The notes under the pieces: generated by a model | The model's input: only the letters and a program-made list of their open reading frames with translations | Told to the model about the DNA's origin: nothing | Databases searched by the model: none | Part shown: in pieces, positions 29,744-35,378 of the stretch | Layout of the letters: each line of letters starts with the position of its first letter | How positions within the stretch are numbered: position 1 is the stretch's first letter | From: Hyphomicrobiales bacterium | GTDB lineage: Bacteria > Pseudomonadota > Alphaproteobacteria > Rhizobiales > Beijerinckiaceae | Length of the DNA stretch: 64,000 nucleotides | NCBI GenBank assembly: GCA_017302635.1 | Contig: JAFLCX010000002.1 | Location: 930,975-994,974 of the forward strand | Reading direction: 5' to 3' | Translations under genes and position numbers: made by a program

Positions 29744-31507
29744 TCAGATTCGTTGAGCGAAACAATTGAAGCCGCTGCGCTTGAGGGCCTTGCAGGCCTC
29801 CTGCGCGCCGTCGGCATCAAATCCGGCGAACCGCGCCCGATAGAGGGTCGAGCCACCCTTGGTCACCGGCTCGGTGAAGGCTTCGGCGGATTTCAGTCGT
29901 GCGGTCTTGCCACGCGCATTGTCGAGCACGACCTTGGCCTTTGCCTCGCTCTCGGCCGCTGCAAGCTGGATGATCCAGCCCGAGCGCTGCGTCGGGGTGG
30001 CCGCAGCCACGGCCTTTGACTGGGAGGCTGGCGCTGCTGCAACCGCGAGCGGCGCAGGAATCGGCGCGCTGGCGGGGGCAGGGGCAGCGGTGCGCGGGGC
30101 GGGGAGACGGTCCTCGGCTTTGGCGGGCAAAGTCGGTTCAGCCGTTTTCGGGAGCGGCTGGTTGCTTTCGGCCTGCGGGGTCGTCGAGGGCAGGGCGTTG
30201 GTGTAGCGCACATTACCCGGTGGCACGAAACGCTGGTCGCGTTGCGGGGGCAGAGAGTCAACGCCGCTGTTGATGGCGCGCAGCGCCTGCGAACGCGGCG
30301 TGGTGCCGACGAGCGCGAGCGGTGTGGTGGCGCTGGCTACAGTCGAACTCGGGCCGGAACTCGCGATGGCGAAGGAGCGCGAGCGTGTCAGTCCCTGATC
30401 CGCCGGGCTTTCAGCGATGACGGCGGTCCGGACCCGGATGGGCGGGGTCGGCAGGGCGGTAACTTTCGGCTCGGCAGACGGCGCAGCGGCTGCGACAGGA
30501 GCCGCCGGTGCAGCCGGAGCGGCTTGCGGCGCCGGCGTCGCCGCCACAACGCGCTGGGCCGGCTTCTCGTCGTCATCCTCGTCGATCTGGGCCGCAGCCA
30601 CCTCGACGGAGCGGGTCGTGCGTCGGCCGGCCACAGCGCGGGGCAGGTGTTCTTCCACCAAAGCGGCGACCTGCGCATCGCGCGCACGGCCCGAACGGCC
30701 GCCGAGCACCACCGTGATCAGGTGCCGTCCATCAGCGCGGGCGGAGGTGAGCAGGTTGAAACCCGAAGCGCGCGTAAAGCCCGTCTTGATACCGTCGACA
30801 CCCTCGACGCGCCCGAGCAGTTTGTTGTGGTTGCGATAGGCGTAGCCGTCGAACTCGAAGCTGCGCGTGTTGAAGTAGTGGTAGAAGCGCGGGAATCGAT
30901 CATGCACCGCGCGCCCCAGGGTCACGAGATCGCGCGCCGTGGTCACCTGTGCCGGGTTCGGCAGGCCCGAAGCATTGCGGAACACCGATCGCGACATGCC
31001 GATCGAGCGGGCCTTGGCGGTCATCATCTGGCCGAATCGCTCTTCCGAGCCGCCGATCGCTTCCGCGACGACAACCGCGACGTCATTCGCGGATTTCGTC
31101 ACCAGCGCCTTGATCGCGTCTTCGACCGCGATGGTTGAGCCGGCGGGGAGGCCGAGCTTCGAAGGCTTCTGGCTCGCGGCAAAACGCGAGACCGGCAGTT
31201 CCGAATTGAGCTTGAAGCGGCCGCGCTCGATCTGCTCGAACAGCATGTAGAGCGTCATGACCTTGGTGATCGATGCCGGGTGACGCAAGGCATCCGCATG
31301 CGTCGCCTGCAAAGTGCGGCCGGAATTGATGTCGACGACGATCGAGGCATAGGGAGGATTGTAGGGCGCGAATTTCTTGCGCTTCTTGCGCGCCGCTTCC
31401 GCCTGCGGCACAGCGGTCGCCAGCACGAAAATCAAGGCCGCCAGCACGGTCAACACGAGGCGCATGGCCAGATGGCCCGTGCCGCTTTCAACGCCTACCA
31501 AACGCAT
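29744..31507 (-). CDS. D-alanyl-D-alanine carboxypeptidase with SPOR domain
   Basis: Penicillin-binding protein 5/6-like D,D-carboxypeptidase (587 aa) that trims the terminal D-Ala of peptidoglycan peptides. The order is N-terminal signal sequence, S-x-x-K (ASITKVM), SAND (SxN), KTG (GIKTGFTRASG), then a Pro/Ala-rich linker of ~200 residues, and a C-terminal SPOR domain (GWIIQLAAAESEAKAKVVL) that binds denuded glycan at the septum. GGAG seven bases before ATG 31507 supports this start; the frame offers ATG at 31513 and 31465 too. It is convergent with the J-domain gene. Confidence 0.9.
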   Translation of the reverse strand: MRLVGVESGTGHLAMRLVLTVLAALIFVLATAVPQAEAARKKRKKFAPYNPPYASIVVDINSGRTLQATHADALRHPASITKVMTLYMLFEQIERGRFKLNSELPVSRFAASQKPSKLGLPAGSTIAVEDAIKALVTKSANDVAVVVAEAIGGSEERFGQMMTAKARSIGMSRSVFRNASGLPNPAQVTTARDLVTLGRAVHDRFPRFYHYFNTRSFEFDGYAYRNHNKLLGRVEGVDGIKTGFTRASGFNLLTSARADGRHLITVVLGGRSGRARDAQVAALVEEHLPRAVAGRRTTRSVEVAAAQIDEDDDEKPAQRVVAATPAPQAAPAAPAAPVAAAAPSAEPKVTALPTPPIRVRTAVIAESPADQGLTRSRSFAIASSGPSSTVASATTPLALVGTTPRSQALRAINSGVDSLPPQRDQRFVPPGNVRYTNALPSTTPQAESNQPLPKTAEPTLPAKAEDRLPAPRTAAPAPASAPIPAPLAVAAAPASQSKAVAAATPTQRSGWIIQLAAAESEAKAKVVLDNARGKTARLKSAEAFTEPVTKGGSTLYRARFAGFDADGAQEACKALKRSGFNCFAQRI

Positions 31508-31603
31508 ACCCATACTCCAGCGCCTGCGCAGTGCCGGATGGAAGGCACAGCCGCCAGGCGAACAGGCAACAAAGCAACAGCGGCTAAAATGCGCGCGATG
31601 CGG

Positions 31604-31712: not shown

Positions 31713-31763
31713 TTGTGCGCTGCAAAATGGTTGCTTGACATTTTGTGCGGTGCAACATAGATG
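31713..31763 (+). promoter_or_regulatory. phasin promoter with two TGC-rich direct repeats
   Basis: A consensus -35 TTGACA is at 31735-31740, with a weak -10 (TAGATG) 17 bases later. TTGTGCGCTGCAAAAT (31713) and TTGTGCGGTGCAACAT (31743) are direct repeats, 14 of 16 matching, spaced 30 bases apart. They bracket the -35 and fill the spacer. TGC/GCA-rich sites are bound by PhaR-type repressors of phasin genes. Confidence 0.55.
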
Positions 31764-31830
31764 GAATGCAACTGGCGCTGGTTGGTGCCGGAGACGAGTT
31801 CACAGGTTCCATTCAGCAAAGGAGATCGCC

Positions 31831-32163
31831 ATGATCCAGGCTTTCGAAGACATCCAGAAGTACGGCAAAGACAACCTCGACCTCGCCATGAAGGCGATCG
31901 GCGTGCAGCAGAAGGGCGTTCAGGCGATCGCCACCGAAGTTGCCGATTATTCCAAGAAGGCCGTTGAGGCCGGTTCGGCCCAGTTCGAGAAGCTTCTCGG
32001 CGTGAAGACGCTCGACAAGGCGATCGAACTCCAGGCTGAGTTCGCCAAGGGCGCCTACGAGGGCTACGTTGCGCATGCGACCAAGGTTGGCGAACTCGTC
32101 ACCGAACTCGCGAAGGAAGCGACCAAGCCGCTCGAGACCATCTTCGCCAAGGCTGGCAAGTAA
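31831..32163 (+). CDS. phasin family protein
   Basis: A 110-residue, all-helical, amphipathic protein of the phasin family. Phasins coat polyhydroxyalkanoate granules and control their size, and some act as stress chaperones. The pattern AFEDIQKYGKDNLDLAMKAI, then ATEVADYSKKAVEAGSAQFEKLLGVKTLDKAIELQAEFAKGAYEGYV, is clear. AAAGGAG lies upstream of ATG 31831. It has its own promoter and a strong downstream terminator, so it is monocistronic. No PHA synthase is in the window. Confidence 0.9.
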   Translation: MIQAFEDIQKYGKDNLDLAMKAIGVQQKGVQAIATEVADYSKKAVEAGSAQFEKLLGVKTLDKAIELQAEFAKGAYEGYVAHATKVGELVTELAKEATKPLETIFAKAGK

Positions 32164-32215
32164 ATCTCGCATACCTTTGATCTGAAAAGATCATTGTAGC
32201 GTCTGACATGCGTTC

Positions 32216-32250
32216 AGGCCCGACCTTTTTGGTCGGGCCTTTTTCGTTTT
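32216..32250 (+). terminator. rho-independent terminator of the phasin gene
   Basis: AGGCCCGACC (32216-32225) and GGTCGGGCCT (32231-32240) form a perfect 10-base stem with a TTTTT loop, followed by TTTTCGTTTTT. It is one of the strongest terminators in the window. Confidence 0.93.
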
Positions 32251-32410: not shown

Positions 32411-32806
32411 GTGTTCTCGACGAGGGTCGCCGTGCCTCTAGCCTGTTCCACATCTGCCGCTTCATGGCCCACCCGCCTCGGCCCGCCCGGGGAAGACGGC
32501 GCGGGGCCGGGCAATGGCACGGCAGTTGCCACGCGAACGCGAACCAAGGCGAAGCGGCCGGATCTGTTCCGGGTGCTTCTGCTCAACGATGATTACACGC
32601 CGATGGAGTTTGTCGTTCACGTGATCATGCATTTCTTCAACCGCACGGAAGAGGACGCGACCCTGATCATGCTGCACGTCCACCATCACGGTGTCGGAGA
32701 ATGCGGCGTTTACACGCACGAAATCGCCGAAACCAAAGTGACACAAGTGATGGCGTTTGCGCGGGATCATCAACATCCGCTGCAATGTGTGATGGAAAAG
32801 AAATAG
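32411..32806 (+). CDS. clpS: ATP-dependent Clp protease adaptor ClpS
   Basis: N-end rule adaptor that delivers substrates with bulky hydrophobic N-terminal residues to ClpAP. The core from [21 protein letters not shown] through [23 protein letters not shown] to [10 protein letters not shown] is fully conserved. The N-terminal ~48 residues are non-conserved, with start read as GTG at 32411; a shorter start inside this tail is possible. clpA follows 109 bases later, the standard arrangement. Confidence 0.93.
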
Positions 32807-32915
32807 GGCGGTTTCTTGCGTTGGGGGCGCAAGAAACATTCCGGCTCCAGGGCCGGATTGATCAGACTCTGAGCCTCCGGGTGAAGGGTGAAAACAGGAA
32901 AGCGAGACGGTCCAC

Positions 32916-35378
32916 GTGCCCAGTTTTTCAAAGAGCCTCGAAAACGCCCTGCATCAGGCCCTGAGCCTCGCCTCGAACCGGCGGCATGAATATGCCACGC
33001 TCGAGCACCTGCTGCTGGCCCTCCTCGATGACGAGGATGCGACGGCCGTCATGGAGGCTTGTAACGTCAAGCTCGACGACCTGCGCCGCACCGTCACGAA
33101 CTACATCGACAACGAACTCGATGCGCTCATCTCGCGCGAGCGGGTCGAGACCAAGCCCACGGCCGGCTTCCAGCGCGTCATCCAGCGCGCGGTGATCCAC
33201 GTGCAATCATCCGGGCGGGACGAGGTGACCGGGGCCAATGTGCTCGTGGCGATTTTCGCTGAGCGCGAGAGTCATGCGGCCTATTTCCTGCAGGAGCAGG
33301 AGATGACGCGCTACGATGCTGTCAATTTCATCTCGCACGGCATCGCGAAAAGGCCGGGGGCCTCCGTGTCGCGCTCGCCGCGCGGGGCCGATGAAGATGC
33401 TGATGAAGGCGCATCGGAAACCCGCAAGGGCGAGGGCGGCGGCAAGGGCGAGAAGGGCAAGGAAAGTGCTCTTGAGGCCTATTGCGTCAACCTCAACGAG
33501 AAGGCCCGCAAGGGCCGGATTGACCCGCTGATCGGCCGCCACTCGGAGGTGAGCCGGACGATTCAGGTCCTGTGCCGCCGGCAGAAGAACAATCCGCTCT
33601 ATGTGGGCGATCCCGGCGTCGGCAAGACCGCGATCGCCGAAGGCCTCGCCAAGATGATTGTTGACGGCAAGGTGCCGGATGTCCTGGCCGATGCGACCGT
33701 GTTCGCGCTCGATATGGGCACTTTGCTCGCCGGCACGCGCTATCGTGGTGATTTCGAGGAGCGGCTCAAGCAGGTGATGAAAGAGATCGAGGCCCATCCC
33801 AAGGCCATTCTCTTCATCGATGAAATCCATACCGTGATCGGCGCGGGCGCGACGTCCGGTGGTTCGATGGATGCGTCGAACCTGCTCAAGCCCGCTTTGG
33901 CCGCCGGCACTCTGCGCTGCATCGGCTCAACGACCTACAAGGAATACCGCCAGTATTTCGAGAAAGACCGCGCGCTCGTACGCCGCTTCCAGAAGATTGA
34001 CGTAAATGAACCGACGGTGCCGGACGCGATCGACATCCTCAAGGGGCTCAAGCCCTATTTCGAGGAGTTCCACCGGCTCAAATACACCAATGACGCGGTG
34101 AAAGCCGCTGTCGAGCTTTCGGCGCGCTATATCCATGACCGCAAGTTGCCGGACAAGGCGATCGACGTGATCGATGAGACCGGCGCGTCGCAGATGCTGC
34201 TGCCCGAATCGAAGCGCAAGAAAACCATCGGCATCAAGGAGATTGAAGCCACCATCGCCACGATGGCGCGTATCCCGCCGAAAACGGTCTCGAAAGACGA
34301 TGCCGAGGTGCTTCAGAACCTGCAAACGACCTTGCGTCGTGTCGTTTACGGGCAGGAAAAGGCCATCGAGCAGCTCACCGCCGCGATCAAGCTCGCACGG
34401 GCCGGTTTGCGCGATGGCGAGAAGCCCATCGGCTCCTACCTGTTCTCCGGCCCGACCGGCGTTGGCAAGACCGAGGTCGCGAAGCAACTCGCTTCGTCGC
34501 TCGGCGTGAAGCTGCTGCGCTTCGATATGTCGGAATATATGGAGCGCCACACGGTGAGCCGTCTCATCGGCGCGCCGCCGGGCTATGTCGGCTTTGATCA
34601 GGGAGGGTTGCTCACCGACGGGATCGACCAGAACCCGCATTCCGTGCTGCTGCTCGACGAAATCGAGAAGGCGCATCCCGATCTCTTCAACATTCTGTTG
34701 CAGGTGATGGATCACGGCAAATTGACCGACCATAACGGCAAGGAAGTCTCCTTCCGCAATGTCATCCTGATCATGACAACCAATGCCGGCGCCTCGGATA
34801 TGGCGAAATCGGCCTTCGGCTTCACCCGCGCCAAGCGGGAGGGCGAGGATGTGGAAGCGATCAACAAGCTCTTCACGCCAGAGTTCAGAAACCGGCTGGA
34901 TGCCATTGTTCCGTTTGGTCATCTGCCGAAGGAAGTCGTGGCGCAGGTCGTCGATAAGTTCATCGCCCAGCTCGAAGCGCAACTTGCCGACCGGCATGTC
35001 ACCATCGCGCTCACCGATCCGGCGCGCAGCTGGCTCGTCGAGAACGGCTATGACGAGCAGATGGGTGCACGGCCGATGGCCCGACTCATCCAGACTGCGA
35101 TCAAGACGCCACTCGCCGACGAGGTTCTGTTCGGCCGACTCAAGGGTGGCGGGCATGTGCGTGTCATCACCCGGGAGGAGGATGGCAAGCCGGTATTGGG
35201 CTTCGAATTTCCCGAAGGCCCCTTGAAGCCCAAGCCCGAGGCTTTGCCGCAGCCGAAAAAGCCGAAGGCCCTGCCGAAAGCCGCGAAACGCAAGGCCTTG
35301 CCAGCGCCCAAAGAACCGGATGATGACGCGCCAAAACCGCGTCGCTCGCCGGTTCCCAAATTGCCGCTGAAGGGCTGA
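32916..35378 (+). CDS. clpA: ATP-dependent Clp protease ATP-binding subunit ClpA
   Basis: AAA+ unfoldase that feeds ClpP. It has an N-domain (residues ~1-150), two AAA modules with Walker A GDPGVGKT and GPTGVGKT, and Walker B/sensor segments LFIDEIHT and LLLDEIEK. The IGL loop for ClpP binding is expected in the second module. Length is 820 aa against ~760 in E. coli; the excess is a Lys/Pro/Ala-rich C-terminal tail from about residue 768. The start is GTG at 32916. Confidence 0.93.

Follow-up and report, generated by a model that had tools for sequence, protein, structure and literature searches.

Two TGC-rich words placed around the -35 element of a phasin gene in a Hyphomicrobiales bacterium (assembly GCA_017302635.1, contig JAFLCX010000002.1) are, with a probability of roughly 0.93, operators through which the polymer-sensing repressor PhaR shuts off that gene. 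They lie in a stretch of 64,000 nucleotides (contig positions 930,975 to 994,974, forward strand), hereafter the window, of a genome of 3.1 Mb in 4 contigs. The PhaR-type operator that an initial annotation had proposed for this promoter is upheld by the presence of a PhaR gene, by the agreement of both words with the PhaR box consensus, by the recurrence of the box at phaA and at a second phasin gene, and by conservation of the pair across phasin upstream regions; footprints and gel shifts published for two relatives add to this support. The present analysis covers sequence, conservation, the PhaR gene and the positions of other boxes, and from relatives we infer binding, repression and release by polymer at the window promoter.

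The repeat pair and its conservation

As initially annotated, the two 16-mers are identical at 14 of 16 positions with starts 30 bp apart, one being located upstream of an exact TTGACA and the other in the promoter spacer (Table 1). The term direct repeats describes them in part only: the words do repeat, but the core of each also fits the dyad TGCRNYGCA (TGC-RNY-GCA), an inverted repeat that corresponds to the known PhaR box. Against the palindrome YTKNTGCRNYGCANMAR of Ralstonia eutropha (PMC12849132), the distal box matches at 15 and the proximal box at 16 of 17 positions. The distal core starts 19 nt before the start of the -35 element and the proximal core 11 nt after it, so that the boxes overlap or adjoin the predicted core promoter of the phasin gene. 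A similar ATA-containing sequence is found at the place of the candidate -10 element in genomes of the same genus.

Table 1. Coordinates of the predicted phasin promoter and gene in the window.
Feature	Position	Strand	Remarks
Distal PhaR box TTGTGCGCTGCAAAAT	31713..31728	+	core dyad TGCGCTGCA at 31716-31724
-35 element TTGACA, exact	31735..31740	+	sits between the two boxes
Proximal PhaR box TTGTGCGGTGCAACAT	31743..31758	+	core dyad TGCGGTGCA at 31746-31754; fills the -35/-10 spacer
Candidate -10 element TAGATG	31758..31763	+	4/6 to TATAAT; 17 nt after TTGACA
AGGAGA and ATG	31820-31833	+	at the phasin ORF
Phasin gene, Phasin_2, 110 aa	31831..32163	+	regulated gene; PF09361 E 1.8e-25

Conservation was assessed in 136 phasin upstream regions, 46 from named loci and 90 from 100 genomes (own genome included), which were reduced to 128 by removal of 8 identical regions; named loci and genomes may overlap, since only identical regions were merged, and per-genus counts derive from the genomes alone. 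The first class of promoters was drawn from 30 loci and 60 fetched stretches, mostly but not strictly with the strongest matches first, and a dozen or more weak or fragmentary phasin matches (e.g. in genomes G055 and G058) fall outside the sample. Of the 128 regions, 106 contain at least two strict boxes between -220 and -25, where first-order Markov shuffles predict 0.155. In 120 of the 128, a pair spaced 15-52, at least one member of which is a strict box, could be selected; the spacings cluster, with 106 pairs at 28-34, 9 at 19-23 and 5 at 44-49. Between the boxes of pairs at 28-34, a hexamer matching TTGACA in at least 5 of 6 positions is present in 103 of 106 cases, compared with 11.4 when the intervening stretch is shuffled. 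With one region per genus, the pair is retained in 63 of 68 genera, in 53 of them at 28-34. Within the genus of the host, both dyads and the -35 element are preserved in 16 promoters whose flanks have mostly diverged, the three central bases of the dyads varying as RNY allows.

The nearest named relatives, as judged by the phasin, include metagenome-assembled genomes labelled Methylobacterium and Beijerinckiaceae (94-95%) and Rhabdaerophilum calidifontis (79%). The phasin ORF scores 47.8 bits against TIGR01985, under the cut-off of 99.7. Its gene is flanked by a D-Ala-D-Ala carboxypeptidase gene (S11 and SPOR domains; 29744-31513, minus strand) and by clpS-clpA (32411-35378, plus strand), and in the short flanks of 76 loci that carry relatives of this phasin the carboxypeptidase was detected 74 times and ClpS 56 times. 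The phasin gene is followed by an inverted repeat rich in GC and then a run of T (32215-32245), which by eye resemble an intrinsic terminator.

PhaR and further boxes in the genome

A search for a PhaR homologue, suggested together with the initial annotation, recovered a single gene, the sole PHB_acc_N match in the genome (PF07879, 2.9e-31), which scores 151.5 bits against the NCBIfam equivalog TIGR01848, above its cut-off of 109.45. It is divergent from an adjoining thiolase gene, regarded here as phaA, which is frequently adjacent to phaR. Polymer-synthesis genes are represented by two PhaC_N matches, PhaZ and the thiolase beside phaR. When solved structures were searched with the PhaR sequence (locus L031, 1471-2010), no recognisable relative was recovered (best E 0.49).

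Between phaR and phaA lies a box, ACGTGCAGTGCAACA, whose core, directed towards phaA, starts 11 nt after the start of a TTGACG, as does that of the window's proximal box after its -35 element. TTGAC followed 4-10 nt on by a strict box occurs at 3 genomic sites, while the reversed pattern has none: the window phasin, the phaA promoter and a site upstream of a gene for a TAXI-type TRAP solute-binding protein. In the last case (locus L234, 1501-1509; G000:C1:993374-993396), the box starts 14 nt after the start of TTGAC, and the transporter gene is a possible further target of PhaR. Pairs of strict boxes spaced 18-48 apart are present at 4 sites, against 0 for the reversed pattern, namely the window, the second phasin gene, which is preceded by a pair 19 apart, and loci L237 (1501-1554) and L238 (1501-1545). 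The pairs of these two loci, spaced 45 and 36 respectively, have no identified target. Near-matches to the 16-mer within 2 mismatches number 134 in the genome, against 28 reversed; single near-matches, which were inspected in part, were not counted as targets, several of them being within coding sequence.

Spacing and a second promoter arrangement

The initial annotation had read the 30 bp spacing as close to three helical turns. The spacing is real, but the phase argument found no independent support. That PhaR binds here and the spacing itself is selected, with two dimers on one face acting cooperatively or as a tetramer, appears rather doubtful to us. The clustering of spacings favours it, as do the 18-22 spacings of second phasins and the report that more than one site lowers the amount of PhaR needed to shift Ralstonia phaP3 DNA (PMC12849132). 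However, under a selected spacing the two distances to the -35 element should compensate for each other, and with one promoter per genus (n=50) they are uncorrelated (r -0.06), the variance of their sum being 1.46 compared with 1.55 for permuted pairs (p 0.34); moreover, either Sinorhizobium box alone is enough for a gel shift (PMC12542648). The correlation of r -0.37 seen in pooled promoters is probably due to relatedness and vanished in the per-genus sample, so that helical phasing was dropped as an independent constraint. The 30 bp may be no more than a consequence of the positions that the boxes need in order to obstruct the polymerase.

For a second class of promoters, the 1.5 kb (in one case 1 kb) ahead of each of 40 weaker phasin matches was read. 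These matches were chosen for their weakness and not by an orthology test, so that other phasins may be among them. Strict pairs spaced 18-22 are present in 29 of the 40 and absent from 11, the 29 pairs representing 19 genera, with 11 pairs from the window's own genus by our tally. A T precedes the proximal box, giving TTGC, in all 29 and the distal box in 6, and the mean match to TATAAT peaks 17 nt after the hexamer beginning TTGC and, equally high, in the AT-rich arm that immediately follows the box. The proximal box of this class probably covers the -35 element; for pairs spaced 18-20, the start of the distal box falls 17-19 nt ahead of that element, in agreement with the first class.

Taken relative to the -35 element, these positions tentatively suggest an order-wide grammar in which the distal box starts 17-20 nt before and the proximal box at either +11-14 or +1, yielding spacings of 28-34 or 18-22. 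The +11-14 place is that of window-type phasins and the +1 place, on the -35 element, that of second phasins, the two being separated by about one helical turn, so that the switching point of each paralogous phasin may be set to its own level of free PhaR. The words 'spacing', 'helical' and 'cooperativ' are absent from the main texts of PMC12542648 and PMC6201568, and no comparative study of operator spacing was recognised in a literature search whose coverage left out most subscription papers.

Alternatives, proposed switch and known PhaR systems

Among the 100 genomes, a PhaR match was found in 89 and a match to the window phasin in 86, both being present in 84 and neither in 9. The tandem pattern occurs 430 times in these genomes, against 47 for its reverse. 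In the 89 PhaR-positive genomes the counts are 413 and 41, and in the 11 genomes with no PhaR match 17 and 6 (Mann-Whitney p 6e-5 for tandem pairs by PhaR presence, related genomes being uncorrected). This distribution bears on whether the words could instead bind a different regulator that shares the TGC/GCA dyad, as might be thought from the boxes also seen beside genes that have no obvious connection with polymer storage (loci L001, L006, L237 and L238). Such a regulator is very improbable, given that tandem pairs are more frequent in the genomes with a PhaR match and that the footprinted PhaR sites of Bradyrhizobium share the core, position and kind of gene. That two TGC-rich words resemble each other by chance in a genome of high GC content is refuted by conservation, as strict pairs recur far above expectation in phasin upstream regions and all 16 same-genus promoters retain both dyads and the -35 element as the flanks drift, even though lone strict 9-mers are common (12 in the window) and the 16-mer pattern TTGTGCGSTGCAAMAT is expected 1.9 times in the window at up to 3 mismatches. 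Only the two words match it there, but the pattern was written from the words themselves, which makes the window test alone weak, and the 16-mer with 3 mismatches was dropped as an uninformative statistic.

Several observations weigh against a PhaR operator. A strict box was not detected in the immediate upstream regions of the PhaZ gene, of either PhaC gene (loci L065, L066 and L232 for phaC/phaZ) or of a third phasin gene; near phaC the sole one (L065:885) lies at a distance of about 240 bp and seems to fall within a neighbouring ORF on the opposite strand. These genes were rejected as targets, and the predicted regulon is therefore smaller than the initial annotation had hoped. No PhaR match was obtained in genome G023 (93% complete), which carries a tandem box before its phasin gene, or in G075 (88% complete), in which tandem pairs number 6; incomplete assembly could explain both. 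PhaR can also activate, as at Ralstonia phaP3 (PMC12849132), yet box placement on the core promoter favours repression in this case.

With PhaR as the regulator, nothing in the window sequence departs from the published model, in which free PhaR represses, polymer sequesters it, and the phasin then made displaces it (PMC6201568, PMC9049629). When no polyhydroxyalkanoate is stored, free PhaR would occupy both boxes, probably with one dimer per TGC-RNY-GCA dyad. Because the distal box lies shortly before TTGACA and the proximal box occupies the spacer, RNA polymerase would be excluded and the phasin gene kept off. Nascent polymer would sequester PhaR and leave the operators empty, so that phasin would be made and coat the granules, until its displacement of PhaR from the granule restored repression. 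The single dimer on one DNA face that had been suggested initially gives way to probably two dimers, since two dyads are present; dimers per box have also been proposed for Ralstonia (PMC12849132).

From sequence alone, the case supports the view that a granule-sensing switch known from a few models governs the phasin of a lineage that has been little studied. It also yields about a hundred natural variants of a single tandem operator, with which the influence of the two operator positions on the threshold and the order of phasin expression becomes directly testable. The same set could guide structural work on PhaR, for which no sequence relative was recovered among solved structures.

A close parallel is phaP1 of Bradyrhizobium diazoefficiens, where PhaR footprints lie 6 bp either side of the -35 element with the motif TGCRNYGCASMA (PMC6201568). 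Footprint and start site were measured at that promoter, whereas the window promoter is known only as sequence. The Bradyrhizobium boxes are 29 apart by their listed positions (PMC10888616), compared with 30 in the window, and the arm after the core is CAA there and AAA and ACA here. In Sinorhizobium meliloti, palindromes flank the -35 elements of phaP1 and phaP2, the motif of AniA/PhaR is WNWD2NYGCRNYGCRNH2WNW, and gel shifts are lost on mutation (PMC12542648); spacings of 18 (phaP1) and 28 (phaP2), taken from the listed coordinates, match both classes seen here. A depolymerase gene of Sinorhizobium has a box, whereas the PhaZ gene found in this genome has none close upstream. Ralstonia phaP1 resembles the window promoter in its palindromic box with a one-nucleotide centre, in a site directly upstream of the -35 element and in repression, but differs in having a second site around the transcription start and a third predicted within the gene. 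The window very probably carries an operator of a known type, in an organism new for it. The arrangement has been demonstrated before in two relatives, and the order-wide geometry with two places for the proximal box is the sole mildly new element.
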